DNA from: Hypomesus transpacificus
Lineage: Eukaryota > Chordata > Actinopteri > Osmeriformes > Osmeridae
DNA length: 64,000 bases
Assembly (NCBI RefSeq): GCF_021917145.1
Contig: NW_025813938.1
Coordinates: forward strand, 310,001 to 374,000
Direction: 5' to 3'
In this document: piece by piece, positions 16,032 through 47,043 of the stretch
Layout: the number at the start of each line of letters is the position of its first letter
How positions within the stretch are numbered: position 1 is the stretch's first letter
The notes under the pieces: model-generated
The model's database searches: none
What the model saw: the letters and a program-made list of their open reading frames with translations, nothing else
Told to the model about the DNA's origin: nothing
Made by a program: the position numbers and the translations under genes

Positions 16032-19000
16032 TCACTGCCCCTGTGCATCCTGGGAGTTGGAGTCTTTGGCCCCTCCCACCAGCAGCAGTTCAGGCGAGCG
16101 CAGGAACACCACCATGACGGTGATGTTGTCACTGGAGCCAGCAGCCTTGGCATGAGCCACCAGCTGCCGGGCTACGTCCTCACCCAACAGGCCCAGAGGC
16201 TCCTCTCCCTGAGGCTCCTCCCCCTCCCCCCGAGGCTCCTCCCCCTCCAGGGGCTCCCTGTGCTTGCGGAGCGCCCCAAGGACCAGTTGCGGGACTTCTT
16301 CTGAACTCACGGTGTCAAAAAAGCCATCGCACGCCAGGAGAACATAGTCCTCGTCGCCGGTCAGCTGTGTGGACGAGCAGTCAGCGTCTCCGGACACGTA
16401 CGGCTTCTGGTCAAAGTCCCCTGCAGAGAGACAGGATCCTCACAGAGAGCAGGGTCCAACCATGTCTAACAGCAATTATGTTTGTTACAAAAGGAAACCT
16501 CCAGGTGTGGCACCTAGCAGTGATATCCAAACAATACAAACCACAACATTTCTCTGAAGATTGGACGCACGGTCCTGTGATACGGAACACAGAGTACGTG
16601 TGACGCTACTGACCGATGGCCCTGGAGACGGCGTATGTGACGCTACTGACCGATGGCCCTGGAGACGGCGTATGTGCCGTTGACACGCCAGCAGCCCATG
16701 AAGGTGATGCAGCCGCCCAGACCCTCGATCCTCTCTCTCTCGTCCTGGACACGGGAGGGGTGGAGGAGGGAGGGGTGGAGGAGGGAGAGAGAGGGAGGGA
16801 TGGAGTAGGGAGGGGAGGAGGAGGGAGAGAGAGGGAGGGGTGGAGGAGGGAGAGAGGGAGGGGTGGAGGTGGCATTCAGAGAGGGAGGAGGAGACACTGA
16901 ATGGAGGGCCACTGTAGGTTGTATTCATGTTGTAACAGAATCCCACATATCCAGCAGTTGGAGCAATCTGCCGGAGATGGCATTCAGAGAGGGAGGAGGA
17001 GACACTGAATGGAGGGCCACTGTAGGTTGTATTCATGTTGTAACAGAATCCCACATATCCAGCAGTCGGAGCAATCTGCCGGAGATGGCATTCAGAGAGG
17101 GAGGAGGAGACACTGAATGGAGGGCCACTGTAGGTTGTATTCATGTTGTAACAGAATCCCACATATCCAGCAGTCTAACTGTACCACAGGGAAGGAGAGT
17201 GTGTGTCTCACCTCTCTCTCAGGCTTGTGTGTGTGTGTCTCACCTCTCTCAGGCTTGTGTGTGTGTGTGTCTTACCTCTCTCTCAGGCTTGTGTGTGTGT
17301 GTGTGTCTCACCTCTCTCTCAGGCTTGTGTGTGTGTGTGTTTGTGTGTCTCACCTCTCTCTCAGGCTTGTGTGTGTGTGTGTGTGTCTTACCTCTCTCTC
17401 AGGCTTGTGTGTGTGTGTGTCTCACCTCTCTCTCAGGCTTGTGTGGCTCCATGAGCGGGACAGCCTGCCCCCCCCTCACCAGCAGGGCCTGAGAGTCACC
17501 CAGCCAGGCCACCGTCAGAGCCCCGCCCTGCAGGAGCACGGCCACGCCCGTACTGCCGCTACGCAGACGCTGCACACACACACACACACACACAGAGTCA
17601 AACACCACACACAGTCAGCCCTTCTCAGTGTCATCTGACCCTTAAATCATTCCTGACCCTTAAATGGGCCTGACCATATCTGCTCCATGAACATGTTGCT
17701 CCAGGAAACCCATCCCAACATGAAAATACAAACATCCCTGAACCCCAGGAGACCCAGGAGACCCAGGCCCAGCTGGTTCAGGTGTTGTTATGCAGCGTAC
17801 CTCCCTCCTGGCTTTGCCTCTGAACATGTGGTCTGTGCGTGTGAAGGCCTCCTTGAAGGCAGTGTCTGGGTCCGAGGCCAGCGCCCCCTGCTGGCCCAGC
17901 AGCACGTGCAGGTGGGTGGCAGCGTAGTTGGCTGCGTCCACGCCCCCGTGCCCGTCGAACACAGCGTAGTACTGGCGAGACGTCCCATCCTGCAGAGAGA
18001 CCAGCACAGTATTGAGGACACTAACAAGCTCCCAGCAGGTTCGAGAACAACTTTTAAGGCTTTTCTATGCTTTAATGGACAGTTTGAAGTGTGACAGGAC
18101 AGGCAGGGCGAGACAGAGAGGGGAGGACATGCAGCAAAGTGCCCAGGCTGTATATGAACCCAGGTGGCTGCGGTGAGGCCTCAGCCTACATGGCACGCTC
18201 AGTTATCTGGTGAACTACCGGGACACCCTGGATGGAGCAGATGAAACACCCTGACCCTGACTGACCCTAACCCTGACTGACCCTAACCCTGACTGACCCT
18301 AACCCTAACCCTGACTTACCCTAACCCTGACTGACCCTAACCCTAACCCTAACCCTGACTGACCCTAACCCTAACCCTAAACCTGACTGACCCTAACCCT
18401 GACTGACCCTAACCCTGACTGACCCTAACCCTGACCCTAACCTTGACCCTAACCCTGACTGACCCTAACCCTGACTGACCCTGACCCTGACTGACCCTAA
18501 CCCTGACCACGTCTGACCTGGGGGAGATCGTACCTGAAGGCCGAGGAGCTGGTTGAAGTGGGCGAGCGCCACATGGCGGTCCTCCATCTTCCTGCGGGAG
18601 TTCCTGATGGCGTGAGCGGAGCACAGTGGGACGAGGGGCGGGGCTTCGGGGTGGGCGGGGAGATGTTGGTGCCAGGCCACACCCACCTCCCGCAGCTTGT
18701 TGAAGAACAGACGCTGGACAGGCTCCGAATGGAGCACTGCAGACGAGAGTTAGGACGAGAGTCAGAACGAGAGTCAGGACCAGAGTCAGGACCAGAGTCA
18801 GGACCAGAGTCAGGACCAGAGTCAGGACCAGAGTTAGGGCTACAGCTCTGTGGAGGGGGAGCTGTTTAATCACTGGAGAGAGCTGAATTATTGTGGTTTA
18901 CCAGAGGGCACACATGGGTAGTCAAATGAGTACTGTAGCATAGAGCTCTGAGCCAACACGAGATTAACATGGACGGATTAACATGGTGAATTTATAGTAT

Positions 19001-20932
19001 TGATAAGGACACAACAATCTCTCTGCTCGTAACCAAATCAGGCTTTTACAGAAATTTGACTACACACTGAACACACATTTAGGTTAGCGATTAGCTTGCT
19101 TATCGTGCCAACGGCACTCAACTATGAAACTCAAGCTGGAGGGGGCAAGGGACTCACATAAGGTCAGGGTTGTGGAGGAGGGGGAGGTTGGCTCGGTTTG
19201 GAAGGGGCTTAGATTAGGGTTAGAGGTTAGCAGGTGGGGGACTAACATAATACTTCCTGTTCTCCGTCCTGCTGCTGGGCATCTTGGGGGCAGTGGAGAG
19301 GTGAAAGGTCACTCTTCAGGAGCTCTGACAGGGCAGCCTCACACAGGGCAGCAGCCAGCGACCCCGGGGCCTTCCTGGACCAGACAGCAGGGTGGAAGAC
19401 AACAGGATGAGACTAAAGGTATCAAACACACAGAGGCACACAAGCCTGGGGAAATGTAGACCTCTCCAGGTAAAACACTAATGTTACAGAGATGTGATAG
19501 TCATACAACATCAAGGGAGCAGAATACAGATCTAGTAACTTTAGCTCCATGTGTATGAGTTTACAGAATTAACTAGGAATATATCTGACATTCACTTCTT
19601 TATACAGTCTTTGTGCTATAACTGGCCGGTAGGTGAGTGTAATGACAAGTCTGTATTACTCTACTACTACCAGAGAATAGCAGCAAACTAGAAACACTGA
19701 GGGGAGAATCAGGAAGTGGGTGGAACAATGGTGATTCCAGACAGGAAATGAGGTCTTGCCGACAGGAAATAGCCCACAGGAATATATACAAAAGGCCAGA
19801 TGATGTTCTGCTGCGTAGAGTGAGCCTCTCTGGCCTGAACGTTTGGGTCTAAACGGATCTTTCACATCTGACAGAAAGCTTCCCAAGGCTCTCAATGCCA
19901 AGTTTCTATCCCTTCCCCATCTCCCTCCTCCCATTGGCTGAGTCACTACAGCCTTCCTCATCTCCATCCTCCCATTGGCTGAGACACTACAGCCTTCTCT
20001 ACTTGTGGAGGGCGGGACATAGGCAGGGATCAGCTTGCTTTCTCGAGGCAGGAATGTGAGGAATGCTCTCTGTGAACACCAAAACACACAGCTGTAGGTT
20101 GATATCTAAGAACTCTAATGTAACGTTTCTTTTAACTTAAAAATGCAAAATGATGTCCTATGAATCACATGCGCACCTTGTTGGCACTAATGATCGTTTT
20201 GACACAAATTTGGGGATTTAGTCTAATCTTAGCTACTGCCTGGCTAATTGTTCTAGTTACATTTTAGCTGCATTTTTACTTTTAGCCTAGGTAATATCAC
20301 GGCAGGTTTATTTCTGCTTATATCAGAATCAGAAGGGATTTTATTCGCCATGAGTGTTTGCACAAACAAGGAATTTACTTTGGCAGGGAGGTGCATACAT
20401 TAAACATATAGGAATATTGAAACTTAAATATGTGGACTAACTATACAAAAGGAGCAAAGTCTAGCTAATACTAAGAGGGGTCTAGCTAAAACTAAGAGGA
20501 ATAAAAAATATAAGTAGCCATAATTTACAATTCAACCTAAAAATACCAAAAAATACAGATACAATAGTGCAAATATAGTCTACCTGTGATGATATATATA
20601 TATAGGATGTTTTATTTTACTAAATCTTCTTTTTAGTAAACTAAATAAATATATATATATAATACAAGTTGGCTACTTCAGTCTAATGATAAGATACGTT
20701 TGTCTTTCTTCATGTAGATGGAGATGCATCACACCCACACCCACACACACCCTCACCTGGCAGCCAGCAGGCGCAGGCCCAGGTCCAGACTGTCCCCCCT
20801 CAGCTCATCCAGGGTGGGGGGTCGGCTGGGGGGGGCGAGGGGCAGGGCGACCCCAGGGCCCACGGGAACAGGGAACTCCTCCACGAACCTCGACAGGAAA
20901 CATCTGGCCTCCTCCTCCGCTGTGCTGCCCAT
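16032..20932 (-). CDS. ppm1f: Protein phosphatase 1F (PP2C family, POPX2-like)
   Basis: Metal-dependent Ser/Thr phosphatase; the mammalian enzyme dephosphorylates PAK and CaMKII. Coding exons: 20757-20932, 19247-19374, 18534-18736, 17801-17989, 17426-17569, 16651-16744, 16032-16420. Phases agree throughout and give 440 residues, close to the human length of about 454. PP2C motifs appear in order: [25 protein letters not shown] (Asp181 and Gly182 bind metal), [73 protein letters not shown]. All expected metal-binding aspartates are present, so it should be active. The N-terminal 100 residues are the least conserved; the donor of exon 2 (TTAT|GTTAGT) is the weakest call and was chosen by phase. 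The last exon has a Glu/Pro/Gly-rich insert. top3b follows upstream on the same strand, as in human. Confidence 0.95.
16193..16257 (-). repeat. ppm1f: Coding repeat: Glu/Pro/Gly insert in ppm1f
   Basis: GAGGCTCCTC and CCCTCC blocks repeat within the last exon and encode [19 protein letters not shown], between [10 protein letters not shown] and [11 protein letters not shown]. The frame is kept. It falls in a surface loop near the C-terminal end of the PP2C fold, where length variation is tolerated. Confidence 0.75.
16613..16690 (-). repeat. 39-bp duplication of ppm1f exon 6 end with its donor
   Basis: The sequence coding TYAVSRAIG plus the donor GTCAGTAG occurs twice in tandem. Splicing at the first donor (after 16651) keeps the frame into exon 7. 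Use of the second (after 16614) would read AIGQ and then a stop. Confidence 0.85.
16745..17190. repeat. GA-rich array followed by 108-bp triplicate
   Basis: 16757-16870 is GGGAGGGGTGGAGGAGGGAG-type sequence that forms the pyrimidine tract of the exon 6 acceptor. It is followed by nearly three copies of a 108-bp unit starting GGCATTCAGAGAGGGAGGAG at 16871, 16979 and 17087. The third copy is cut short. Confidence 0.92.
17205..17440. repeat. Array containing repeated ppm1f exon 5 donors
   Basis: CTCACCTCTCTCTCAGGCTT plus a (GT)n tail recurs about eight times. On the gene strand each unit reads AAGCCTGAGAGAGAG|GTGAGA(CA)n, which is the last 15 coding bases of exon 5 (KPERE) with its donor. The true exon end is 17426, the first copy in transcription order. 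Confidence 0.92.
18090..18236 (-). mobile_element. tRNA-derived SINE, second family, in ppm1f intron
   Basis: On the minus strand: CGGTAGTTCACCAGATAACT (A-box region), GGGTTCATATACAGCC (B-box-like), then TTTGCTGCATGTCCTCCCCT. It matches the organisation of the copy at 1079-1225 and is more complete between the boxes. Confidence 0.65.
18237..18528. repeat. Telomere-like (CCCTAA)n / CCCTGACTGA array in ppm1f intron 3
   Basis: Units of CTGACCCTAACC mix with runs of perfect CCCTAA. On the gene strand it is TTAGGG-like, so G-quadruplex-prone. It ends about 20 bp from the exon 3 donor at 18534. Confidence 0.92.
18737..18840. repeat. 12-bp array forming the ppm1f exon 3 acceptor tract
   Basis: GACCAGAGTCAG-type units; on the gene strand (CTGACTCTGGTC)n leads straight into CGTCTGCAG at exon 3. 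It supplies a long pyrimidine-rich tract with branch-like CTGAC/CTAAC motifs. Confidence 0.85.
20324..20580. mobile_element. Interspersed repeat fragment (fish non-LTR 3' type)
   Basis: ATCAGAATCAGAAGGGATTT then TATTCGCCATGAGTGTTTGC, ACAAACAAGGAATTTACTTT is a sequence I recognise as a common dispersed repeat in fish genomes. Family unassigned. An AT palindrome (TTTAGTAAACTAAA region) follows near 20590-20660. Confidence 0.45.
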
Positions 20933-21546
20933 GCCTGATGTCTGGTGGCGTCACAGGGACCAATAGGGAGGTTGGTTAGATCAGAAGAATGTGGGTCTAT
21001 TTCTCAACCTCTGTCAACCAGTCAGGTGACGGGGTGGGGAAGACTAGTCTTGCAGTGTAACAAACACAACCTACAGCCCTCCCAAGGTTCATGTTGTCAT
21101 TGTGGTCATAACACCGGATGAGTTAGCAAACCTCAGGGAAAGCCAGCAGGCCATTTTTAAGTGATGCATACAGCACGCAACCGTGTTGAAATGTACAGGA
21201 GCTGCTAATCGCTTTAGCTCCACTGACGTTGAGCAATGGCAATACTTTAAATGTTGAAAGAGTTGGCCAATTCTTAATAATACAGGTTCTCTAACTGAAT
21301 TATTTGGAACTTAGCCTAGCAGAACACCACATCATACAACGATAACATGTTGCACTGGGACGTTCAATCGCAAGGGGAAATATTTACTTTTAGTTGTTGA
21401 CAGAATGTTTCAATTGCTAGGGCAAGAAGCAGTTCGCTTCGCGGCTAACTTTATATACAAAAGGCAACGAACAACTCACTTCAGCAAGATCGTGTACATA
21501 ACGTTACTATTTACATGTGCACACAAGTACAATGACAAGATCGTAC

Positions 21547-21700
21547 CTTTGACTATCTCAGCGAGGACACTCCTTTCCCGTGTAGAACAGCCAGAGTTAT
21601 ACAGCTTCTAGTATATAAGTCAATATAGCAGCAGCCCCTCCCTCTGCAAAGCAGCAGACAGCCTCAATAAGGAATCCCATTTCCGGTTGAGTCGTCAAAC
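21547..21700 (-). promoter_or_regulatory. ppm1f promoter and 5' UTR exon end
   Basis: On the minus strand, GCTGAGATAGTCAAAG|GTACGATC gives a good splice donor at 21547, and an acceptor sits just before the coding ATG (20932). Upstream are TATATACT near 21610 and an ETS-type CCGGAAAT near 21680. Together these suggest a short non-coding first exon. Confidence 0.5.
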
Positions 21701-22682
21701 CTTTTTTCAAAATAAAAAGGTCATGATACAAAAGTCATTTTACTGATAAAGTTAACCCAGAGAAATAATAATATGTAAAATGTCTGGTGTATTTATAGTC
21801 AACATCGGTATGAGAGGCTTTTTATTACAGCTTTCACTCGCAATCTGTGGCCGGCTGCAGAGAAAAACAGCTCTGTAAGAGATTATCACTGGAAAATTGA
21901 ATCAGAATGTGTTAGCAGTATTAGTAAATGTGTCCTAAATATTACTGGGGAGAGTATTTAGTGTAGCCTCTTTACAAAACTGAGATTGACGATATAGGAT
22001 TTTCTAAACCTAACCTGGCCATAGTAAAATTGTAGGCTACTGTGAGGAGTGGATTGTTCCACCGAATTCACGCCTCGGACACATCTCAGCTCATGCTCTT
22101 ATTCTGAACCCAAATTCGCAAAACAGGAAAAACTATTGAGGTACAAAAACACGATACGAAAATAGGTGCGTTTGACACAACCCCCCACCCCTCACCCCTC
22201 GGCTTGAAGCAACGGCCCCGGTGGATGTAGGTGGTATTGCATGTACGGTTAGGTTTCCGACTCTTCCGGTCATTTTTATTCTATTAACTCCATTCAACAT
22301 TTACAAAACTATCTCCCCCAATAATTTTTGTTTGATTCTCGAACCTGGCTCATACTACTAGCTTTTTCAAGGCTAGACATAATGCAAAGGTGGTGAAATG
22401 TCATTTGCATTTTCCATGCAAAGGTCCACACCAGGGACCATTCATGGACTAGGCCTTGTGGTGCTAAACTTAGTATACGCCTACAGGTGAGACAGGGTGT
22501 GAAGAAAACATGTTCAATATTGATCAATTTTTATTATATTTTTAATTGAGACTAAAAAAACAAAGGCCAACAGGCCATGATGACAATTTCACAAAGTACA
22601 TGTTCATTTGTATTTCATGCCGCTGTATTGATAAAAGCTATGCATTCACATAAACTGTTGTTACGGATGATTGCAGGTGTAG

Positions 22683-23894: not shown

Positions 23895-24172
23895 CTGCTT
23901 CACCAGCTAGGCTGCTGCTGCTGTCTGATAATAAAGAGATCTCAGATCTCCCTGCATGAACTTCCTGTCTGTGTCTCTGTGCTCAACAACATCACTAAGT
24001 TATCAACATATCTCTGAGTTACCAACATCACTAAGTTATCAACATCCCTGTTATTAACATATCTCTGAGTTACCAACATGACTAAGTTATCCTTTCAGCA
24101 ACATCCAGGGGTCTCAAAGGGCTAAAAATGGGAAACAAATGAAACACTTAGATTAAACAAGAAAAAAAGACA

Positions 24173-24178
24173 TTTAAT
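24173..24178 (-). terminator. top3b poly(A) signal candidate
   Basis: ATTAAA on the minus strand, about 47 nt beyond the conserved stop (24225-24227). It gives a very short 3' UTR; a more distal signal could also be used. Confidence 0.45.
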
Positions 24179-24224
24179 TCCACATGATGAAATCATACTA
24201 CAGCTGGTTCAACACTGTAGACCT

Positions 24225-27200
24225 CTACACAAAGTAAGCGGCTAGGGCGGCCATCTTGTCTCTGGGTTTCTTGGGGTTGCCCCTGCGCCCCCTGCCCCTG
24301 CCCCGGCCCCCCCGCCTGGCGCCCCCCCCCCCGGTGCATGGGGTGTCTCATGGTGGCGTGCTTCAGCTCCACCAGGTCCTGGAACACCGGGTCACAGAAC
24401 ACACAGCCGCTGTGCTGCGTCTCTCCTGCCGGCAGCGGGGAGCGCGTCTTGTTGAAGTCCACCGCCACCAGGGAGGCGTCACAGGCCTCACAGCTCTCCT
24501 GCGCCACCTGCAGGACCGGAGGGGAACAGGAGGGAGATAAGGAGGGGAAGATAATCAGTCAACTTTGAATAGTCCCACACACACAGTATCCATACATGGA
24601 ACACATCCTACAAAAAAACAAAATAATAAAAACAGATGAAGTTATGAAGTACCAAAACAGAACCAGAACTCCAGTTAAAACTCCAGATTGCAGAGCATTC
24701 CATATTGAATTAAAAAACACAAGGCCAGTGGTGTTCTTACCTGCACCCTGTGAGCATGCTCAAAGAAGTGCACCAGCACGTTACACCTGTTACAGGCCAT
24801 CCTCCACTTGGGTGCTGAGGTGGGGTCCAGCACCAGCACCCCCCCCTCACACTCCACACACTGAGAGATGCCCAGAGAGCCCAGGGAGTGCTGGCAGGAC
24901 GGGTGGGTGCACTCATTACACCCCATACCTGACAGGGGGGGGAGAGAGAGAGGGGAAGGGAGAGAGAGGAGAGAGGGGCAGGGGAGAGAGACGAGAGAGG
25001 TGCAGGGGAGAGCGAGGAGAGAGGGGCAGGGAGAGAGACGAAAAAGGGGCAGAGGAGAGAGAGGCGCAGAGGTGCAGGGGAGAGAGAGGAGAGAAGGGCA
25101 GGGAGAGAGACGAGAGAGGGGCAGAGGAGAGAGAGGGGCAGAGGTAAAGGGGAGAGAGAGGAGAGAGGGGCAGGGGAGAGAGAGATGGAAGAGAGACAAG
25201 AAAAAGATGGAGGTAGCATTATATAAAAGCAGAACATGATCAGACTCAAGTGTTTATGTGCCTGAAATGGTTCATGTACCAAACCCCATTAACCCCAGAT
25301 AGACAGACCTTTCTTCATGTCTCTGAAGGGGGGGTTGCTGAAGCAGTAGGGGCAGAGGGGGTAGCTCTTCCCCCGGGAGCCGGAGGTCCACAGCACCAGC
25401 TCAAAGTCGTCCAGAGGGCAGCGCAGCTCCTTGTACAGCTTGATGGCTCCGTTCTGAGGCAGGCTGTACGTCTCATCACAGTGGGAGCAGTGGAGCCTGC
25501 TGGGCCTGGCCTGCACACACCAGGGGGGAACTGCCTTATCAGCTCAACGGCCAATGACAAACTGCTTTCTCAGCTGGTCAGCCAATCAGAAACTGCTTCA
25601 TTCACAAGTCAACAAACATGAAGTGGTAAAGAACACAGACACGACCAGGCCTCTACACCTACTGTAGGAGAAGGAGGGGCCTCTACACCTACTGTAGGAG
25701 AGGGAGGGGCCTCTACACCTACTGTAGGAGAGGGAGGGGCCTCTACACCTACTGTAGGAGAAGGAAGGGCCTCTACACCTACTGTAGGAGAGGGAGGGGC
25801 CTCAACACCTACTGTAGGAGAGGGAGGGGCCTCTACATCTACTGTAGGAGGGAGGGGCCTCTACACCTACAGTAGGAGAGGGAGGGGCCTCTTCACCTAC
25901 AGTAGAAAAGGGAGGGGCATCTACATCTACTGTAGGAGTGGGAGGGGCCTCTACATCTACTGTAGGAGAGGGAGGGGCCTCAACACCTACTGTAGGAGAG
26001 GGAGGGGCCTCTACACCTACTGTAGGAGAGGGAGGGGCCTCTACACCTACTGTAGGAGAGGGAGGGGCCTCAACACCTACTGTAGGAGAGGGAGGGCCAG
26101 CAGGAGGGGAAATAACACAGACAAGCTAAGGTGTGTTGGCAGTCAGACCCAATTAGCATCGGGGACGAGTTAGCATCGGGGAAGGTTAGCAGGGCTGACC
26201 TGGATGTACTTCATGAAGCGGTGGCACTTGCCACAGCGGGACAGGGGCTTCCCGCTGGCAGCGATGGGAGAGAAGGAGACCTCCATCAGCTCGTCCATAC
26301 CTGGAGACCAAGAGAGACAGGAACAGGAACCATGCAGACACAACTCCCCTGATCAACCTCTCATTCTAACATCACAGGATGGGGGAGGGGTCAACCTCTC
26401 ATTCTAACATCACAGGATGGGGGAGGGGTCTACCTCTCATTCTAACATCACAGGATGGGGGAGGGGTCAACCTCTCATTCTAACCATCACAGGATGGGGG
26501 AGGGGTCAACCTCTCATTCTAACATCACAGGATGGGGGAGGGGTCAACCTCTCATTCTAACCATCACAGGATGGGGGAGGGGTCAACCTCTCATTCTATC
26601 ATCACAGGATGGGGGAGGGGTCAACCTCTCATTCTAACATCACAGGATGGGGGAGGGGTCAACCTCTCATTCTAACCATCACAGGATGGGGGAGGGGTCA
26701 ACCTCTCATTCTAACATCACAGGATGGGGGAGGGGTCAACCTCTCATTCTAACATCACAGGATGGGGGAGGGGTCAACCTCTCATTCTAACATCACAGGA
26801 TGGGGGAGGGGTCAACCTCTCATTCTAACATCACAGGGTGGGGGAGGGGTCTACCTCTCATTCTAACATCACAGGATGGGTGGAGGAGGGTCTGACTCAC
26901 TGGGGATGGAGTCAACAAAGTAGTGGAACTTCCTCTTGAAGATGTCCAGCGTGTGCTGCAGGACCTGCTGGAAGTTGGCCTGGCCCTGCGCTATCAGGGT
27001 CAGCTGCTTCTCCACAGCACTGCGGATGGTAGGGAGGACCAGCTCTGCATCTGAGGGAAGGAGGGAGGGAAGGAGGGAGGGAGGGAGGGAGGGAGGGAGG
27101 GAAGGAGGGAGGGAGGGAAGGAGGGAGGGAAGGAGGGAGGGAAGGAGGGAGGGAAGGAGGGAGGGAAAGCATCAAACAGAGAGGTACACTAAAGGCATAC

Positions 27201-30200
27201 TCTGTCATTATTTTGTCATGTAAGAAAATGTGGCTTTTAATAACACCTGCACAACCTGTGTTCCACACACCCTGTGCTCCACACACCCTGTGCTCCCCAC
27301 ACCCTGTGCTCCACACCCTGTGCTCCACACACCCTGTGCTCCACACACCCTGTGCTCCCACCCTGTGCTCCACACACCCTGTGCTCCCCACACCCTGTGC
27401 TCCACACACCCTGTGCTCCCCACCCTGTGCTCCACACACCCTGTGCTCCCCACACCCTGTGCTCCCCACCCTGTGCTCCACACACCCTGTGCTCCACACA
27501 CCCTGTGCTCCACACCCTGTGCTCCACACACCCTGTGCTCCACACACCCTGTGCTCCCCACCCTGTGCTCCACACACCCTGTGCTCCCCACCCTGTGCTC
27601 CACACACCCTGTGCTCCACACACCCTGTGCTCCACACCCTGTGCTCCACACCCTGTGCTCCCCACACCCTGTGCTCCACACCCTGTGCTCCACACCCTGT
27701 GCTCCACACACCCTGTGCTCCACACCCTGTGCTCCCCACCCTGTGCTCCACACCCTGTGCTCCACACCCTGTGCTCCACACCTTGTGCTCCACACCCTGT
27801 GCTCCACACCCTGTGCTCCCCACCCTGTGCTCCACACCCTGTGCTCCACACCTTGTGTTCCCCACACCCTGTGCTCCACACCCTGTGCTCCACACCCTGT
27901 GCTCCACACCCTGTGCTCCCCACACCCTGTGCTCCACACCCTGTGCTCCACACCCTGTGCTCCCCACCCTGTGCTCCACACCCTGTGCTCCCCACACCCT
28001 GTGCTCCACACCTTGTGTTCCCCACACCCTGTGCTCCACACCCTGTGCTCCACACCCTGTGCTCCACACCCTGTGCTCCCCACACCCTGTGCTCCACACC
28101 CTGTGCTCCCCACCCTGTGCTCCACACCCTGTGCTCCCCACACCCTGTGCTCCACACCTTGTGTTCCCCACACCCTGTGCTCCACACCCTGTGCTCCACA
28201 CCCTGTGCTCCCCACACCCTGTGCTCCACACCCTGTGTTCCACACCCTGTGCTCCACACCCTGTGCTCCACACCCTGTGCTCCCCACCCTGTGCTCCACA
28301 CCCTGTGCTCCCCACACCCTGTGCTCCACACCTTGTGTTCCCCACACCCTGTGCTCCACACCCTGTGCTCCACACCCTGTGCTCCCCACACCCTGTGCTC
28401 CACACCCTGTGTTCCACACCCTGTGCTCCACACCCTGTGCTCCACACACCCTGTGTTCCACACCCTGTGCTCCCCACACCCTGTGCTCCACACCCTGTGC
28501 TCCACACCCTGTGCTCCACACACCCTGTGCTCCACACCCTGTGCTCCACACCCTGTGCTCCACACCCTGTGCTCCCCACACCCTGTGCTCCACACCCTGT
28601 GCTCCACACCCTGTGCTCCCCACACCCTGTGCTCCACACCCTGTGCTCCCCACACCCTGTGCTCCACACACCCTGTGCTCCACACACCCTGTGCTCCACA
28701 CCCTGTGCTCCCCACACCCTGTGCTCCACACACCCTGTGCTCCACACACCTGTCTTGTAGTAGCCGTGCACCAGCACGATGCCGAGGTTGGTGGGTTTGA
28801 GCTTGCGTCCGTTCTCCACCGTCACATAGTTCCTCTGACACACGTTGTTGATGTGGACAGGGATGCTGGCGTCGGTGCCTGGAGGGTTAGGGTTAGGGTT
28901 AGTGCCTGGAGGGTTAGGGTTAGGGTTAGTGCCTGGAGGGTTAGGGTTAGTGCCTGGAGGGTTAGGGTTAGGGTTAGTGCCTGGAGGGTTAGGGTTAGGG
29001 TTAGTGCCTGGAGGGTTAGGGTTAGGGTTAGTGCCTGGAGGACAGGAGCACGTGTGTGTTAGGGTCCAGGTACTAACTCTTTTATAACTGAATCTATAGA
29101 CTTGTTGTTATAGAATGTGTTATAATAACAGTGCAGAGAAATAAATACAGTAAATAGATTACATAAAAAGTATATAATAAAAATAGAAAGGAGAAGAATC
29201 TAGGAGGTCTGCTGGTGTGGGCTGAACACAGCTGAGCTGACTGACCGATGCCATGTTTCTGAACACAGGTGAACACAGCTGAGCTGACTGACCGATGCCA
29301 TGTTTCTCCATGAGGGTGATGAGCTCAGACTCAGTCAGGTAGTCTGGAGGGCTGGTCTGCTTCTCCACCAGCCTGATGTCCTCCACGCTGAACACGTCCC
29401 CACACTCACACACCGGCATGGCCTCCTCCAGGGGGATGCCCTGCCACGGCATCACCTCCGTGAACCCTGGAGGGTCACACACACACACACACACTGAACT
29501 ACACGCACAGGTTAATGAACTACACACACACACACACACACACACACACTGAACTACACGCACACGTTAATGAACTACACACACATACACACACACACAC
29601 ACACACGTTACTAAACTACAAGCACAAACATTACTGAACCACACACACACGTTTGTTTACGTTACTTGATGAGTAAAAACAGCCAATCAGCTACATCATC
29701 TGGTTGATAATATGGACCCAGACCTTACCAGTAGATCTGGAGTCAGACCTTACCAGTAGGTCTGGAGTCAGACCTTACCAGTAGATCTGGAGTCAGACCT
29801 AACCAGTAGATCTGGAGTCAGACCTAACCAGTAGATCTGGAGTCAGACCTTACCGGCTGAGATGAGCGTCTTTCCGCTGCAGGAGAAGATCTCGGAGGCG
29901 ATGGTGAAGGTGATGGTGGTCTGGAGATACTTGCAGTCCTGGCTGATGGTGGCGATGAAGTGTCGGGTGATGTACTCAAACAGGCGCCAGCCATCACTTC
30001 CTGCAGGGAGAGACAAACCCCTCTGCATTAGCTATGTACTCAAACAGGCGCCAGCCATCACTTCCTGCAGGGAGAGACAAACCCCTCTGCATTAGCTATG
30101 TACTCAAACAGGCACCAGACATCACTTCCTGCAGGGAGAGACAAACCCCTCTGCATTAGCTATGTACTCAAACAGGCACCAGCCATCACTTCCTGCAGGG

Positions 30201-33200
30201 AGAGACAAACCCCTCTGCATTAGCTATGTACTCAAACAGGCGCCAGCCATCACTTCCTGCAGGGAGAGGCAGTTTGTCTGCATTAGCTTTAAATGCAGTA
30301 TCAAGATAACTGAAGAGGTCTGTCAACACGAGCATTACACATGCATAATATCTCATCTCTATGTCCATGTAGAGGCGCCCACCCAGCTCGCTCTCTGAGG
30401 CTGCCCTCATGGGGGTGATGGGGGGGTGGTCGCCCGCGTCTGACCCCTTCCTGGGCCGGTTCAGACCCTCCGACAGCAGGGCCTTCACCTGGGGGGACAA
30501 ACCATCACCATTCATGCACCTGTATCGGGTTTTCAAGGATGTGTGTGTGTGTGACTGTGTCCTGGCCATGCTCACCTCCTGAGCCCAGTAGGGGTGGCTG
30601 GCCTGCTGCTTCAGCGCCCCCTTCAGGTCAAAGTTGTCATGGTACTGCGTGGTCTCTGTGCGGGGGTAGCTGATGTAGCCCTGAGTGTACAGGCGCTCCG
30701 CTATCTGCATGGTGTGCTGGGGACCCATCCCTGCAACACACACACAGTCACTAACACACACACACCCTGCAGCAACACACACACAGTCACTAACACACAC
30801 ACACCCTGCAGCAACACACACACAGTCACTAACACACACACACCCTGCAGCAACACACACACAGTCACTAACACACACACACCCTGCAGCAACACACACA
30901 CCAGTCACTAACACACACACACCCTGCAGCAACACACACACAGTCACTAACACACACACACCCTGCAGCAACACACACACAGTCACTAACACACACACAC
31001 CCTGCAGCAACACACACACAGTCACTAACACACACACACCCTGCAGCAACACACACACCAGTCACTAACCCACACACACCCTGCAGCAACACACACACAG
31101 TCACTAACACACACACACCCTGCAGCAACACACACACAGTCACTAACACACACACACCCTGCAGCAACACACACCAGTCACTAACACACACACACCCTGC
31201 AGCAACACACACACACAGTCACTAACACACACACACCCTGCAGCAACACACACACCAGTCACTAACACACACACACCCTGCAGCAACACACACACCAGTC
31301 ACTAACACACACACACCCTGCAGCAACACACACACAGTCACTAACACACACACACCCTGCAGCAACACACACACAGTCACTAACACACACACACCCTGCA
31401 GCAACACACACACCAGTCACTAACACACACACACCCTGCAGCAACACACACACAGTCACTAACACACACACACCCTGCAGCAACACACACACCAGTCACT
31501 AACACACACACACCCTGCAGCAACACACACACAGTCACTAACACACACACACCCTGCAGCAACACACACACCAGTCACTAACACACACACACCCTGCAGC
31601 AACACACACACAGTCACTAACACACACACACCCTGCAGCAACACACACACAGTCACTAACACACACACACCCTGCAGCAACACACACACAGTCACTAACA
31701 CACACACACCCTGCAGCAACACACACACAGTCACTAACACACACACACCCTGCAGCAACACACACACCAGTCACTAACACACACACACCCTGCAACAACA
31801 CACACACAGTCACTAACACACACACACCCTGCAGCAACACACACACCAGTCACTAACACACACACACCCTGCAGCAACACACACACAGTCACTAACACAC
31901 ACACACCCTGCAGCAACACACACACCAGTCACTAACACACACACACCCTGCAGCAACACACACACAGTCACTAACACACACACACCCTGCAGCAACACAC
32001 ACACAGTCACTAACACACACACACCCTGCAGCAACACACACACAGTCACTAACACACACACACCCTGCAGCAACACACACACAGTCACTAACACACACAC
32101 ACCCTGCAGCAACACACACACCAGTCACTAACCCACACACACCCTGCAGCAACACACACACCAGTCACTAACCCACACACACCCTGCAGCAACACACACA
32201 CCAGTCACTAACCCACACACACCCTGCAGCAACACACACCAGTCACGAACATAAACATAAATTATTCCAAAACAACACTACTGTATAAGCACTTCAAACA
32301 TGTAAGGCCATATGTTTCACTGTCTGCTGGCTATGATGTTCTCCTACACAAAGGGATCCTAAATGCCTGAATGATTCACTGCCCTTAAATGGATTGACGG
32401 CACTAAAAGCCCAGACGGCTGCTCTTCATTTAGTTGAATAGAAGCACAGCGGAAGGTAGAAGCGGTGTGACCCTGACTGAGCTAATGGACCTGACGTCCC
32501 AGCAGGCGCTTGTTACCCAGAGAGGAGCTGGCCACGCGCAGCATCTCCACCGTGTTCAGGGCCTGGGGCCGAGGCTTGGCCTTCTCCTTCTTGCTCACAG
32601 ACTCCACCTGCAGGACAGAAGACAGCATGACGGGGGGAGAAGCCTTGGGATTGGAAAAGCCAGAGCAACAAGTTCACACTCTGTACAGCTGACACTTTAG
32701 GTGAGATTAATGACTTGTGAAGCCATGCCTTCCATGTGTCTAATCAGTTGTCAGAAGGGCATGTTCTCAACAGTGGTTTGACAACAGGTGCCAGTAGAGG
32801 GGGTGATGTCGGAGTGAGGTGAGGTGGTGATGTCAGAGTGAGGTGAGGTGGTGATGTCAGAGTGAGGTGAGGTGGTGATGTCAGAGTGAGGTGAGGTGGG
32901 GATGTCGGGGTGAGGTGGTGATGTCGGAGTAAGGTGAGGTGGTGATGTCGGGGTGAGGTGAGGAAGTGATGTCAGAGTGAGGTGAGGTGGTGATGTTGGG
33001 GTGAGGTGAGGTGGAGATGTCGGGATGAGGTGAGGTGGTGCTGTTGAGTCCTGTGTGACGGTCTCACCTTGGCTTCTCTGGAGGTCTTGACTAAGTTGAC
33101 AAACATCTGCCCCACGTCCCTGTCGAAGACCCTCCCTCTGTCCCAGTCCAGAGTCAAGGGGCTGTCCTTCCCCTTGAACACCTACACACACACAGTTTAA

Positions 33201-36200
33201 ACCTTAGCTTTTTGCGGTGGTTATAGGTCAGGCAAGGCTGATGATCACAACAAATCCCAACAATCTGAGCTGTGAGCATGTTGATGATGCCAGGTTCTCA
33301 CCTTGGGCTGGAGGACCCAGTAGGTTTCTGGTTTGAAGGACTGGATCTTGTCGTGGCGCTCCACACAGAAGCCCAGTGTGGGGGTCTGGCAGGGCCCGAA
33401 CGAGATGAGCGACGAGTCCAGATTCCCATATTTACCCTGGAAGTACTTGGTCTGGAACCTGGTAATAACAAAGAGGCACCCGGAAGCAACAAGTTTGATT
33501 CAAGTCCGGAATTATCTAACTTACACATCTGGAAATAGGCCTCTCATGCTCTAAACTGGATAAAATGAGGTCCCGCTTCTAACCAGTTTCATGCCTTCCC
33601 CCGGCAGGTTCCCTGAGGGGGCAGGTTCCCTAAGGGGGCAGGTTCCCTAAGGGGGCAAGTTCCCTAAGGGGGCAAGTTCCCTAAGGGGGCAGGTTCCCTG
33701 AGGGGGCAGGTTCCCTAAGGGGGCAGGTTCCCTGAGGGGGCAAGTTCCCTGAGGGGGCAGGTTCCCTAAGGGGGCAGGTTCCCTGAGGGGGCAAGTTCCC
33801 TAAGGGGGCAAGTTCCCTAAGGGGGCAGGTTCCCTGAGGGGGCAGGTTCCCTAAGGGGGCAGGTTCCCTAAGGGGGCAGGTTCCCTGAGGGGGCAGGTTC
33901 CCTGATGGGGCAGGTTCCCAAAGGGGGCAGGTTCCCTAAGGGGGCAGGTTCCCTGAGGGGGCAGGTTCCCTGATGGGGCAGGTTCCCTAAGGGGGCAGGT
34001 TCCCTAAGGGGGCAGGTTCCCTGAGGGGGCAGGTTTCCTGTGGGGGCAGGTTTCCAGGGGGGGCAGGTTCCCTAAGGGGGCAGGTTCCCTGAGGGGGCAG
34101 GTTTCCTGTGGGGGCAGGTTTCCTGTGGGGGCAGTTTTCCTGGGGGGGCAGGTTCCCTAAGGGGGCAGGTTCCCTGAGGGGGCAGGTTTCCTGTGGGGGC
34201 AGGTTCCCTAAGGGGGCAGGTTTCCTGAGGGGGCAGGTTTCCTGAGGGGGCATGTTTCCTGTGGGGGCATGTTTCCTGGGGGGGCATGTTTCCTGTGGGG
34301 GCAGGTTCCCTAAGGGGGCAGGTTCCCTGAGGGGGCAGGTTCCCTGAGGGGGCAGGTTCTCTGAGGGGGCAGGTTCCCTGAGGGGGCAGGTTCCCTAAGG
34401 GGGCAGGTTCCCTGAGGGGGCAGGTTCCCTGAGGGGGCAGGTTCCCTAAGGGGGCAGGTTCTCTGAGGGGGCAGGTTCCCTAAGGGGGCAGGTTTCCTGA
34501 GGGGGCAGGTTCCCTGAGGGGGCAGGTTCCCTGAGGGGGCAGGTTCCCTAAGGGGGCAGGTTCCCTGAGGGGGCAGGTTCCCTGAGGGGGCAGGTTTCCT
34601 AAGGGGGCAGGTTCTCTGAGGGGGCAGGTTCCCTGAGGGGGCAGGTTTCCTGAGGGGGCAGGTTCCCTGAGGGGGCAGGTTCCCTAAGGGGGCAGGTTCT
34701 CTAAGGGGGCAGGTTCTCTAAGGGGGCAGGTTCTCTGAGGGGGCAGGTTCTCTAAGGGGGCAGGTTCTCTAAGGGGGCAGGTTCTCTGAGGGGGCAGGTT
34801 CTCTAAGGGGGCAGGTTCTCTGAGGGGGCAGGTTCCCTGAGGGGGCAGGTTCTCTAAGGGGGCAGGTTCTCTGAGGGGGCAGGTTCCCTGAGGGGGCAGG
34901 TTCCCTGAGGGGGCAGGTTCTCTGAGGGGGCAGGTTCTCTAAGGGGGCAGGTTCTCTAAGGGGGCAGGTTCTCTGAGGGGGCAGGTTCTCTGAGGGGGCA
35001 GGTTCTCTGAGGGGGCAGGTTCCCTGAGGGGGCAGGTTCTCTAAGGGGGCAGGTTCTCTGAGGGGGCAGGTTCCCTGAGGGGGCAGGTTCCCTGAGGGGG
35101 CAGGTTCTCTAAGGGGGCAGGTTCTCTAAGGGGGCAGGTTCTCTAAGGGGGCAGGTTCCCTGAGGGGGCAGGTTCTCTAAGGGGGCAGGTTCTCTAAGGG
35201 GGCAGGTTCCCTGAGGGGGCAGGTTCTCTAAGGGGGCAGGTTCTCTAAGGGGGCAGGTTCCCTGAGGGGGCAGGTTCTCTAAGGGGGCAGGTTCTCTAAG
35301 GGGGCAGGTTCTCTAAGGGGGCAGGTTCTCTGAGGGGGCAGGTTCTCTGAGGGGGCAGGTTCTCTAAGGGGGCAGGTTCTCTAAGGGGGCAGGTTCTCTA
35401 AGGGGGCAGGTTCCCTGAGGGGGCAGGTTCTCTAAGGGGGCAGGTTCTCTAAGGGGGCAGGTTCTCTAAGGGGGCAGGTTCCCTGAGGGGGCAAGTTCCC
35501 TGAGGGGGCAGGTTCTCTAAGGGGGCAGGTTCTCTAAGGGGGCAGGTTCTCTAAGGGGGCAGGTTCTCTGAGGGGGCAGGTTCCCTGAGGGGGCAGGTTC
35601 TCTAAGGGGGCAGGTTCTTTAAGGGGGCAGGTTCTCTAAGGGGGCAGGTTCTCTAAGGGGGCAGTACCGTGTGAAGGCACAGCCGATGCGCAGGTCCAGC
35701 TCCTGCCGAGCGTCCACAGACAGCGCCTCGTTGCGGTTGGGCTCACCCAACCGGCTCATGGCGCTAAAGATGTCTGTGTCGGTGATGGAGCTGAACTTGG
35801 CACGGAAGACGCTCTGCTCCGAGTTGTAGGACCTGTTCATCACGGGCTGGATGGCATCCAGGACCTGGAGGCAGGAAGGGGGAGAGAGGAGGAGGGAGAG
35901 GGGAGGAGGGAGGGGGGAGAGCGGATCACATGCTGGGTTTAGCTCGGCGATGAAGCATTTGACTGAAGTTGTGTGAGTACAGAAAAACAGAGTATTTAGA
36001 AATCCGTAATTTGTGATTACCTCAAAACAGATGTTCTCTCCCTCTTTGTCGCAGTCCAGCCACAGAACCACACAGTCACAACCTTTAGCTTCCACCTGGA
36101 GACACACCCAGGACCAACAGGGGTTGTTATGATCAGTGACCTTTGCACTTTTGTAAAGCTCTCTCTTGAAAGTCGATTTGGATAAAATCGTCTGCTAAAT

Positions 36201-38012
36201 GAATAAATGTAAACGTTACACCCGACCAGCAGAACACCACGGGTGGTGGCCAACACATTTCAGGCATGAGTTATTAACTCAATCTGGACAGAGCGCACCT
36301 CCTGAAGGCTCAGAGCAGACCCCAGGTGAGACTCACCTCCTGAAGGCTCAGAGCAGACCCCAGGTGAGACTCACCTCCTGAAGGCTCAGAGCAGACCCCA
36401 GGTGAGACTGACCTCCTGAAGGCTCAGAGCAGACCCCAGGTGAGACTCACCTCCTGAAGGCTCAGAGCAGACCCCAGGTGAGACTCACCTCCTGAAGGCC
36501 CAGAGCAGACCCCAGGTGAGACTCACCTCCTGAAGGCTCAGAGCAGACCCCAGGTTAGACTCACCTCCTGAAGGCTCAGAGCAGACCCCAGGTGAGACTC
36601 ACCTCCTGAAGGCTCAGAGCAGACCCCAGGTGAGACTGACCTCCTGAAGGCTCAGAGCAGACCCCAGGTGAGACTCACCTCCTGAAGGCTCAGAGCAGAC
36701 CCCAGGTGAGACTCACCTCCTGAAGGCTCAGAGCAGACCCCAGGTGAGACTCACCTCCTGAAGGCTCAGAGCAGACCCCAGGTGAGACTGACCTCCTGAA
36801 GGCTCAGAGCAGACCCCAGGTGAGACTCACCTCCTGAAGGCTCAGAGCAGACCCCAGGTGAGACTCACCTGCAGGAACTTGACCATGTTGAGTTTGGGGT
36901 TGGCCTCCTTCTTCTCCGTGGGAGCCGTACTGAAGAGCTCAGCAGGGTCCACCTTGTCCCAGTTGTTGTACTTCCCTGGAAACAGACGACAGTGAGAAGC
37001 ACCGTTAGGTAGGCTGACGAGACACAGGAAGTGGATCTGGGGGTTCAAGACACAGGAAGTGGATCTGGGGGTTCAAGACACAGGAAGTGGATCTGGGGGT
37101 TCAGAGACACAGTAAGTGGATCTGGGGGTTCAGAGACACAGGAAGTGGATCTGGGGGTTCAGAGACACACCTATGAAGTCCAGGCTCATGACGTGTCCAC
37201 ACACGGAGGTCATCTTGAATCGTGCACTTTGACCCTGGAAGCTGCCAACGTACTCATGCACTGAGCATGCTCCGTTGAGTCCTTTGCGACTGGAGCAGGA
37301 TCCTGTTGAACAGCGGATGAGTATGGTTACATTTGGTAAACATGTTAGAAAATATCAGTGACAATAATTGAATGACAGGCCTCTTTCCTTCCAACATCAG
37401 TTTATCTTTGTGACATTTGTGCAATTTGATTTGATAGATGTGGACAAGCATTTAAACTCTGACCAAAAGACCATTACTACGGTGAGAACGCTCCTCCATT
37501 CTCATCAAACAGTCATGCCGTCCCCTCTGACGTCTCTAAAGTCTGGATGCAGCTCAGTACTTCCGGTCGGAAGTACACAGACATAAACTAAACTGAACTT
37601 TTACCTGTAATCTTTACAACTGACCGATCTAAACCGATTTGAGGCGGAACTCCCTTTTAGTGTATTAATGGGGCTAATACGAAGGCTAAATGCAAAATTG
37701 TGAATCGTTTAATGAAATGCTCATCCCAAGCCAGGGCTATGTGCTAATGGGAGGCCTTGAAAAGCGCATCGTGAATGGAGAGCCAGTGACTAAGCGACGA
37801 GACTCATCCCCGCCCTCAAGTTAAAGGTTGAGGATAGTTTGTATAGTGCTTTGAGCCTAGACCAGACCATTCCCTCACACTGCCTGAAAATGCCTTTCCA
37901 CGATGTGCAACAATCAATGAAAAAATCCAAATTCTCACTCACCTTTTGACAATATTTTGGCAATGGACTGTGCCAATGAAGGCTTCTCTGCTACCATCAA
38001 TATAGTTTTCAT
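24225..38012 (-). CDS. top3b: DNA/RNA topoisomerase III beta
   Basis: Type IA topoisomerase that relaxes DNA and also acts on mRNA with TDRD3/FMRP. Eighteen exons, all phases agreeing: 37943-38012, 37171-37302, 36869-36975, 36021-36095, 35668-35864, 33302-33458, 33068-33181, 32517-32607, 30576-30730, 30383-30488, 29854-30000, 29293-29466, 28750-28878, 26901-27050, 26200-26300, 25309-25510, 24741-24928, 24225-24507. Expected length is about 858 residues (human 862). TOPRIM domain: [20 protein letters not shown] and [14 protein letters not shown]. The catalytic tyrosine in [10 protein letters not shown] is residue 336, as in human. C-terminal zinc-binding pairs include CGKC, CSHC, CPYC, CNEC, CVEC, CNRC and CEAC. 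The last exon has an RG-rich box and ends MAALAAYFV, but an 11-G run puts that end one base out of frame. Introns are unusually full of minisatellites. Confidence 0.97.
24321..24331 (-). pseudogene. top3b: Frameshift in top3b last exon at an 11-G run
   Basis: Upstream of the run the frame reads [16 protein letters not shown]. After it, the conserved RG box and terminal YFV are found only one frame over. Ten or thirteen G would join them. As written, translation leaves the conserved frame and runs to a stop at about 24193. A homopolymer sequencing or assembly error is the simplest cause; a real polymorphism is possible. Confidence 0.85.
24930..25195. repeat. GA-rich minisatellite in top3b intron 16
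   Basis: GAGAGACGAGAGAGGGGCAG-type units. On the gene strand it is a long CT tract running into the exon 17 acceptor (CTGTCAG|GTATGG). Confidence 0.9.
25645..26098. repeat. 30-bp minisatellite in top3b intron 15, about 15 copies
   Basis: Units of GGCCTCTACACCTACTGTAG followed by GAGAGGGAGG, with CAACACC and CTACATC variants. It keeps a 30-bp period except for one short copy near 25845. Confidence 0.95.
26345..26890. repeat. 36/37-bp minisatellite in top3b intron 14, about 15 copies
   Basis: The unit includes CATCACAGGATGGGGGAGGG and GTCAACCTCTCATTCTAA. A single C insertion (TAACCATC for TAACATC) recurs in scattered copies. Confidence 0.95.
27052..27170. repeat. GGAGGGA/GGAAGGA array abutting top3b exon 14 acceptor
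   Basis: A pure purine array on plus; on the gene strand (TCCC)n runs straight into TTCCCTCAG|ATGC. Confidence 0.9.
27248..28748. repeat. 1.5-kb minisatellite beginning at top3b exon 13 donor
   Basis: Units of CACACCCTGTGCTCC with lengths of about 13-17 bp (CACCC, CACACCC, CACACACCC, CCCCACACCC) occur roughly a hundred times. Larger blocks marked by CACCTTGTGTTCC recur, showing multi-unit duplication. On the gene strand the array starts at intron base +1 (ACAG|GTGTGTGGAGCACAGG). It leaves very long open frames in four frames, all artefacts. Confidence 0.96.
28874..29042. repeat. Telomere-like array with repeated top3b exon 13 acceptors
   Basis: Six to seven units of GTGCCTGGAGGG(TTAGGG)n. 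On the gene strand: CTAACCCTAACCCTCCAG|GCAC, i.e. the real acceptor plus the first four exon bases, repeated. Each unit also carries CTAAC, the branch-point consensus. Confidence 0.93.
29215..29306. repeat. Partial duplication of top3b exon 12 end and donor
   Basis: CTGACTGACCGATGCCATGT occurs twice. The outer copy (about 29240) repeats the last exon bases GAAACATGGCATCG and the donor GTCAGT of the true site at 29293. Confidence 0.85.
29470..29650. repeat. (CA)n microsatellite cluster in top3b intron 11
   Basis: Several CA runs separated by GAACTACACGCACA-like spacers, beginning next to the exon 12 acceptor (CCTCCAG|GG). Confidence 0.9.
29725..29856. repeat. 25-bp array of top3b exon 11 donors
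   Basis: ACCAGTAGATCTGGAGTCAG plus ACCTT recurs five times. On the gene strand each unit reads CTG|GTAAGGTCTGACTCC or GTTAGG, copying the real donor GCCG|GTAAGGTCTGAC at 29854. Confidence 0.93.
29971..30275. repeat. 64-bp array copying the start of top3b exon 11
   Basis: Almost five copies at 64-bp spacing (29971, 30035, 30099, 30163, 30227). Each carries the acceptor CTGCAG and the first 29 exon bases (encoding SDGWRLFEY). Only the copy nearest low coordinates continues into the full exon. Some copies have CAGGCACCAG for CAGGCGCCAG. Confidence 0.95.
30731..32238. repeat. 1.5-kb minisatellite ending at top3b exon 9 acceptor
   Basis: About 38 units of ACACACCCTGCAGCAACACA plus CACACAGTCACTA, with 39/40-bp alternation (CACAGTCA or CACCAGTCA). 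On the gene strand each unit ends TGTTGCTGCAG, matching the real acceptor GTGTTGCAG|GGATGG. Confidence 0.96.
32785..33050. repeat. 24-bp minisatellite in top3b intron 7
   Basis: About ten units of GAGGTGAGGTGGTGATGTCA plus GAGT, with GGGG and GGAG variants. Confidence 0.92.
33598..35664. repeat. 2.07-kb 17-bp minisatellite at top3b exon 5 donor
   Basis: About 120 copies of GGGGGCAGGTTCCCTGA, with C/T and G/A alternatives at two positions (TTCYCTRA). It ends four bases inside intron 5 (ACACG|GTACTGCCCCCTT on the gene strand). TTCTCTAA types dominate near the exon and TTCCCTGA types further away. The plus (template) strand is G-rich. Confidence 0.97.
36155..36213 (+). mobile_element. SINE tail fragment
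   Basis: GATTTGGATAAAATCGTCTG and CTAAATGAATAAATGTAAAC match the shared SINE tail; no head is present. It lies in top3b intron 3. Confidence 0.65.
36290..36868. repeat. 38-bp array of top3b exon 3 donors, 15 copies
   Basis: CAGGTGAGACTCACCTCCTG plus AAGGCTCAGAGCAGACCC repeats to the exon boundary. On the gene strand every unit reads TTCAG|GAG|GTGAGTCTCACC: an acceptor-like AG, three bases, then a consensus donor identical to the true one (CTGCAG|GTGAGT at 36869). Confidence 0.95.
37018..37168. repeat. 27/28-bp array at top3b exon 2 donor, 5 copies
   Basis: GACACAGGAAGTGGATCTGG plus GGGTTCA repeats. It reaches the donor of exon 2 (TTCATAG|GTGTGTCTC) at 37171. Confidence 0.9.
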
Positions 38013-43886: not shown

Positions 43887-44217
43887 TGGACGGGCTGACA
43901 GGTTGCAGCAGATGCATGCGTATGCTAATGAATGACTGGGCTGTTTTACGTGCGTAGAAAGGGGGGAGGGGTCCACTAGTTTTCATGAAATGGGCTAAAT
44001 ATTAAATGTGTTCAAAGTAAAATACAATTTTGCTCAGAAAGTATGTCCAGCTGACATACTTTCTGAAAGATAGTGAGAACTCCTGAACACAGTCTAAATC
44101 ACAGTGTTCTCTGGTGTTACACACACTGTGTGTGTGTGTGTGACAGTGGAGGGGAGATGGGGGATGTATATCACAGTCAGCTGGTGACTCCGAACCCCCT
44201 TCTAACTCACCACTGAA

Positions 44218-45246: not shown

Positions 45247-45304
45247 CGATGAAATCCTATAGATCCTAACTGATCACGGTCCAGCAGCGTCAGTATGGAT
45301 CTGC

Positions 45305-45625
45305 AGCTCTGCATGTGGAGCCCACAGCACAGAGAGCCCACAGCACTGAGAGCCCACAGCACAGAGAGCCCACAGCACAGAGAGCCCACAGCACCGAGAG
45401 CCCACAGCACAGAGAGCCCACAGCACAGAGAGCCCACAGCACAGAGAGCCCAGAGAGCCCACAGCACAGAGCCCACAGCACAGAGAGCCCACAGCACAGA
45501 AAGCCCACAGCACAGAGAGCCCACAGCACAGAGCTCACAGCACAGAGAGCCCACAGCACAGAGAGCCCACAGCACAGAGAGCCCACAGCACAGAGAGCCC
45601 ACAGTACAGAGCCCACAGCACAGAG
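45305..45625. repeat. 15-17-bp array, GAGAGCCCACAGCACAG
   Basis: About twenty units of GAGAGCCCACAGCACA with occasional loss of GAGA. It follows the previous array after about 60 bp of unique sequence. Confidence 0.93.
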
Positions 45626-45639
45626 GGGAATGGTGGCCC

Positions 45640-46876: not shown

Positions 46877-46954
<78 letters not shown>

Positions 46955-46958
46955 GAGA

Positions 46959-47041: not shown

Positions 47042-47043
<2 letters not shown>

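Follow-up and report, generated by a model that had tools for sequence, protein, structure and literature searches.

Minisatellites Flush with or Repeating Splice Sites in the Neighbouring ppm1f and top3b Genes of Hypomesus transpacificus

In a 64,000-bp window of the Hypomesus transpacificus genome (contig NW_025813938.1, positions 310,001 to 374,000), the ends of tandem arrays are found at the splice junctions of two neighbouring genes, ppm1f and top3b, more frequently than expected under random placement. Nineteen of the 46 junctions of their coding introns have an array within 10 bp, donors and acceptors alike, and some of the arrays repeat the splice signal itself. This kind of structure is known from amphioxus under the name of mirage; what is notable here is its density in one vertebrate gene pair.

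Genes and Tandem Arrays in the Window

Both genes are on the minus strand, and their coding parts are at 16030-20934 (ppm1f) and 24.2-38.0 kb (top3b). Exon limits were fixed from the GT...AG junctions and the reading frame, with the limit of the last ppm1f coding exon at 16420. The ppm1f model is a single 440-residue open frame with a PP2C domain. The top3b model aligns to human TOP3B without gaps over 717 residues, of which 587 are identical. There are 23 coding introns, as the original prediction had counted, and all 23 have GT...AG ends. In the last exon of top3b, the frame is lost close to 11 consecutive C (24322-24332), and the expected C-terminus (MAALAAYFV and a stop) is found in another frame. 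This is either a base error of the assembly or a genuine frameshift.

Arrays were taken from TRF with a score of at least 50, unless another score is given. The coding introns contain 26 such arrays, spread over 19 of the 23 introns. Arrays cover 65% of the coding introns and 4% of the exons, compared with 22% of the rest of the window beyond 16030-38014. Such coverage is as expected if exons are protected. It does not suggest the removal of arrays elsewhere, which had been proposed as one reason for their position at exon edges.

No array of score 50 is close to a junction in the first coding introns (19375-20756 in ppm1f and 37303-37942 in top3b); lowering the score to 30 reveals a simple tract of 27 bp (20730-20756) that adjoins the donor of the ppm1f first intron. 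Outside both genes, dense large arrays occupy 42366-47555, where the plus strand is C-rich. Two UnaL2 LINE 3' elements (690-743 and 50775-50828) and a cluster of mir-130, mir-301, and mir-454 hairpins (58705-63078, plus strand) were also observed; the hairpins, like the TOP3B identity, indicate vertebrate DNA. Of 248 reading frames, 10 were scanned, all of them outside both genes, and none had a Pfam match (0/10); the window may thus contain a third gene.

Arrays Repeating Splice Junctions

About fifteen exon borders had been predicted to carry arrays, and this observation is confirmed. Each of the 15 has a tandem repeat that either crosses the junction or comes within 10 bp of it. At 14 of them, the end of a TRF array is within 10 bp or inside the exon, and the fifteenth, the donor of top3b exon 12, has a two-copy duplication. 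Four more junctions with an array within 10 bp at score 50 were detected: the acceptors at 35865, 29467, and 17570, and the donor at 26199. The acceptor at 24508 joins them when the score is lowered to 40. The cases are of three kinds.

In the first kind, the unit includes the junction together with exon sequence. The acceptor of top3b coding exon 11 (29854-30000) is crossed by a 64-bp array of 4.7 copies (29970-30268), which repeats 31 exon bases, the AG, and the pyrimidine tract. At top3b coding exon 12 (29293-29466), the donor is crossed by a two-copy duplication with 15 exon bases (29223-29307), in which 38 identical bases at 29223-29260 and 29270-29307 have an offset of 47 bp. In ppm1f, seven copies in a 34-bp array (17199-17445) contain the donor of coding exon 5 (17426-17569) with 18-20 exon bases, and a 37-bp two-copy duplication (16599-16676; TRF matches 100%) spans the donor of coding exon 6 (16651-16744) with 26 exon bases. 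The acceptor of top3b coding exon 13 (28750-28878) is crossed by a 27-bp array (28875-29041) with only 4 exon bases. The units of the latter are telomere-like (TAACCC); telomere-like arrays are also present at 18248-18508 and 50713-50768.

The presence of exon bases in several units was thus borne out, with at least 15 exon bases at 4 of the 15 listed borders and 4 bases at the top3b exon 13 acceptor. At the other listed borders, TRF extends 1-4 bases into the exon at three flush donors and does not reach the exon at seven.

Arrays Flush with Donors

The second kind is flush with donors and is seen at coding exons 2, 3, 5, 11, and 13 of top3b. GT is kept in the copies at exons 3, 11, and 13. 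A 38-bp array of ~15 copies (36296-36870) starts at the donor GT of exon 3 (36869-36975); 13 more donor-like copies were found by pattern, and the printed ones read GAG-GT[G/C]AGT. A 25-bp array of 5.4 copies (29719-29854) extends from the GTAAGG donor of exon 11. A 14-16-bp array of ~100 copies (27250-28753) is flush at the donor of exon 13.

The copies displayed at exons 2 and 5 do not keep GT. The 29-bp array (37019-37169) at exon 2 (37171-37302) is 1 bp from the donor, and CT replaces GT in its copies. The 17-bp array at exon 5 (35668-35864) has ~121 copies (33603-35664) and its first base is 3 bp into the intron, at about +4; the displayed copies lack GT. The claim that arrays begin exactly at the splice site therefore holds for some borders but not for these two donors. 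Outside the list, the top3b coding exon 15 donor (26199) has a 17-bp array of 2.4 copies (26153-26191) at a distance of 8 bp. Only the units carrying a junction and part of the donor-flush arrays fully match the picture originally drawn.

Arrays next to Acceptors

The third kind lies against acceptors, and several of its members are pyrimidine- or GT-rich. In ppm1f, a 12-bp array (18742-18838) is 5 bp from the acceptor of coding exon 3 (18534-18736), a pyrimidine-rich tract with a 108-bp array (16753-17175) is 8 bp from that of coding exon 6, and a GT-rich simple array (17573-17617), one of the unlisted cases, is 3 bp from that of coding exon 5 (17570). In top3b, a 39-bp array of ~39 copies (30733-32251), whose units contain TGCAG-GG, is 2 bp from the acceptor of coding exon 9 (30576-30730). 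A simple array of GAGG/GAAGG (27053-27167), which is all pyrimidine on the sense strand, is 2 bp from the acceptor of coding exon 14 (26901-27050). A pyrimidine-rich array (24933-25183; 92% C/T on the sense strand) is 4 bp from that of coding exon 17 (24741-24928). The two remaining unlisted acceptors are those of top3b coding exon 5 (35865), with a simple array of 97% pyrimidine at a distance of 2 bp (35867-35925), and of coding exon 12 (29467), with a GT-rich array at 9 bp (29476-29653).

Of the seven ends that are flush with acceptors, four belong to simple tracts that might function as a pyrimidine or GT-rich tract, and all four simple-unit arrays are flush with acceptors. The pyrimidine fraction on the sense strand is 0.69 in acceptor-side arrays, versus 0.51 in donor-side arrays and 0.49 elsewhere (one-sided p = 0.03). 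This richness is as expected if chiefly compatible units can sit at acceptors.

Copies of Splice Signals

GT is repeated in 6 of the 8 donor cases. Donors were scored by the number of matches to the U1 consensus (of 9). The decoy copies score close to the real donor at top3b exon 3 (7 in the decoys versus 8 in the real donor), exon 11 (6-7 versus 7), and exon 12 (6 versus 6), and at ppm1f exon 5 (6-7 versus 6) and exon 6 (6 versus 6). Weaker decoys are seen at top3b exon 13 (4-5 versus 7, with 35 copies found by pattern) and exon 2 (3 versus 6).

The extension of the exon predicted from the use of a decoy donor contains a stop in all copies at top3b exon 3 (13/13) and exon 11 (5/5), and at ppm1f exon 5 (6/6) and exon 6 (1/1). 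The same is predicted for the decoys at the top3b exon 11 acceptor (4/4). Open extensions are predicted for the donors of top3b exon 12 (1/1) and exon 13 (35/35), and for 4 of the 7 nearest decoys of the exon 9 acceptor. At the top3b exon 13 acceptor, the decoys are in frame and stop-free (5/5) and would add peptide repeats to TOP3B.

The exon-proximal copies give a continuous reading frame up to the point where the frame is lost in the last exon of top3b. They are probably the copies that are used, because the protein is continuous with them.

Three arrays with donor copies show a shared variant at intron base 3: GTG/GTC in 36296-36870, GTA/GTT in 29719-29854, and GTG/GTA in 17199-17445. The idea that decoy donors are disarmed by mutation at +3 was rejected, since the variant improves the consensus match in one of the three arrays.

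Excess of Array Ends at Junctions

Under a uniform placement that admits intrusion into the exon up to one unit and takes arrays of the same intron as independent, 2.09 array ends are expected within 5 bp of a junction, and 12 were observed (p = 1.1e-7). The excess holds for complex units alone, for which the 4 simple-unit arrays among the 26 are left out (22 arrays; 8 ends versus 1.72, p = 1.2e-4). For donors, 5 ends were observed versus 1.05 expected (p = 3.1e-3), or 5 versus 0.86 with complex units (p = 1.2e-3). For acceptors, the numbers are 7 versus 1.05, with 4 of the 7 being simple tracts, and 3 versus 0.86 with complex units (p = 0.05).

Shuffling within introns, in which array lengths are retained and exon parts are clipped, gave 5.1 ends within 10 bp and 2.0 within 3 bp, compared with 18 and 13 in the real arrangement; none of 10,000 shuffles was as high. 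The density of ends per kb is 17-29 within 5 bp, 13 at 6-10 bp, and 0.7-4.4 deeper in introns. When 46 sites were slid across the array ends outside genes, where arrays are sparser, the mean was 0.77 and the maximum 7, versus the real 12. Accordingly, the statement that the cases are too many for chance stands for the examined window, both by shuffling and by uniform placement. It is a single window, picked out by a reader, so the p values overstate the evidence at the genome level.

Array ends lying inside exons are not clearly in excess. Seven were observed versus 4.99 expected under the tolerant null (p = 0.21), and 7 versus 4.35 for complex units (p = 0.11).

Copy Number and Array Edges

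Flushness is associated with copy number. Among complex-unit arrays, 8 of 14 with at least four copies are flush within 5 bp, versus none of 10 smaller ones (0.5 expected; Fisher p = 0.006). This comparison leaves out 11 of 35 rows with units shorter than 10 bp or of low complexity, five of which are flush. With all 35 rows, 12 of 18 larger and 1 of 17 smaller arrays are flush (p = 0.0003). When the two-copy duplication at the exon 12 donor is added, 10 of 14 versus 2 of 11 are flush or spanning (p = 0.015). These contrasts are small and were picked after the data had been seen, and short arrays give TRF less for the definition of ends.

Small complex arrays are found within 10 bp of a junction in 4 of 10 cases, versus 0.95 expected (p = 0.009). 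Nine of the 12 flush arrays end 125-408 bp short of the opposite junction, which indicates that erosion of unique sequence is uneven.

If the flush arrays had once spanned the junction, traces of the exon would be expected in them. There is no significant trace in the five flush donors: the sum of similarity to their exons is no higher than that of other exon ends (p = 0.16). Residual exon similarity was therefore rejected as a sign of former junction-spanning units.

Outside both genes, the mir-454 hairpin (62978-63078) contains in its 3' end the start of a 30-bp minisatellite (63062-63272); this is a constrained edge as well, and one that does not necessarily involve splicing.

Origin of the Arrays

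The reading that we favour, at a probability of roughly 45%, is that these are mirage-type minisatellites which are tolerated at junctions, grow, and have their edges arrested at constrained sequence. A short duplication that touches or spans a junction would spare both the coding sequence and the splice site nearest the exon, and may persist as a neutral change. Duplications within exons would be purged by selection. The array would then add copies through slippage or unequal exchange. Growth, or the loss of neighbouring unique intron sequence, would shift the outer edge until the splice site, which cannot change, stops it. Arrays closest to acceptors would be largely those whose units can double as a tract rich in pyrimidine or GU. 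Splicing presumably uses the exon-proximal copy, and the remaining copies would be decoys. The excess of ends at junctions, the low array cover of exons, the flushness of larger arrays, the exon-lying ends near the rate of the tolerant null, the simple and pyrimidine-rich arrays at acceptors, and the apparently undisturbed splicing of amphioxus mirages agree with this reading. The small arrays within 10 bp of junctions, the uneven erosion of unique sequence, and the lack of significant exon traces in the flush donors speak against it.

Next comes mutational seeding, in which exon edges are the favoured starting points of duplication. The routes could be, for example, microhomology in CAG-GTRAG and YAG-G, nucleosome or GC steps at borders, or pausing linked to transcription. 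The 12 ends within 5 bp versus 2.1 expected and the GT repeated in 6 of 8 donor cases are in line with it. So is the fact that flushness is one-sided: beyond the far end of 9 of 12 flush arrays, 125-408 bp of other sequence follow. Together with the small arrays within 10 bp of junctions (4/10 versus 0.95), these far-end distances leave room for initiation close to junctions. However, none of the 10 small complex arrays is exactly flush, and flushness confined to larger arrays is a poor fit to simple initiation at exon edges. Moreover, ends inside exons show no clear excess, and arrays of at least 10 copies arise outside genes as well (11 of 32 outside arrays). The preferential start at exon edges that had been put forward is thus not demonstrated by these data, and we consider seeding a tentative alternative to arrested growth. 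The interpretation in the original prediction is, as a whole, partly supported.

Selection acting alone as a sieve is improbable. Under it, duplications would occur anywhere, and those near junctions would survive when they keep or mimic the splice signal. Where acceptors have simple tracts of pyrimidine or GT, the polypyrimidine tract would then have grown in the usual manner of a microsatellite. The position of all four simple-unit arrays at acceptors, the exon-lying ends near the rate of the tolerant null, and the weak excess of complex acceptor arrays (3 versus 0.86) agree with such a sieve. By itself, it does not concentrate complex arrays within 5 bp of donors (5 versus 0.86).

Duplication by R-loops or paused splicing, as originally proposed, is very unlikely. 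A G-rich nontemplate strand is seen in some arrays, such as 27250-28753 (skew 0.58) and 30733-32251 (0.71), but the expected signature of a G-rich nontemplate strand was not found, with a positive skew in only 3 of 9 donor-side arrays and 11 of all 26, and in the largest array (33603-35664) this strand is rich in C (skew -0.36). Equally improbable is an artefact in which the assembler collapsed or expanded repeats at exon edges; the frame break by the 11-C run may mean local base errors, but the copies differ in substitutions and lengths, and the duplications include sequence from either side of the junction.

Comparison with Known Systems

In amphioxus, mirages are described as tandem duplications of exon-intron boundaries with length instability, and are reported in Adh3, the globins BflGb6 and BflGb9, troponin C, and PGBD5 (PMC3087553, PMC3902484). 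Data on Adh3 and RT-PCR of globins suggest that splicing is undisturbed by them (PMC3087553). The arrays in ppm1f and top3b are similar in being minisatellite-like duplications of boundaries, at both donors and acceptors, with many copies containing AG or GT (PMC3087553, PMC3902484). They differ in belonging to a vertebrate gene pair, in the share of junctions with an array within 10 bp (19 of 46), and in that most of them contain little exon sequence and lie flush with the junction or close to it. Judged by structure, part of the junctions qualify as mirages.

In a model of intron gain, the tandem genomic duplication of an exonic segment containing AGGT creates a new intron (PMC3443670). Tandem copies of splice signals within genes are common to that model and to the present arrays. 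In contrast, the copies here are intronic, and their removal yields a protein gapless against human TOP3B. GC-rich chicken genes have introns composed largely of tandem repeats (PMC6792250), and top3b and ppm1f are similar in this respect; the accessible part of that report describes no repeats that abut splice sites exactly or duplicate them. The 38-bp VNTR in TERT intron 6 is likewise an intronic minisatellite tied to splicing (PMC3948165). In a killifish, centromeric minisatellites have been described (PMC2688266). Among the titles and abstracts of the matches listed, none concerned vertebrate minisatellites at splice junctions; subscription literature was mostly outside this coverage, and the result is weak evidence of absence.

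It is possible, though doubtful, that exon borders in this vertebrate are points of nucleation or capture of minisatellites genome-wide, with introns growing outward from splice sites and genes holding extended series of competing splice signals. If the pattern is genome-wide, H. transpacificus would be a vertebrate in which mirages are common and the growth of introns is tied to exon borders. It would offer a source of splice-site duplications, a proposed route to new introns, that is testable with long reads from populations, and would raise the question of how splicing selects one of several near-equal copies. If nucleation at exon borders is true, competing splice signals, some of them in frame, could feed alternative splicing and the formation of new introns.
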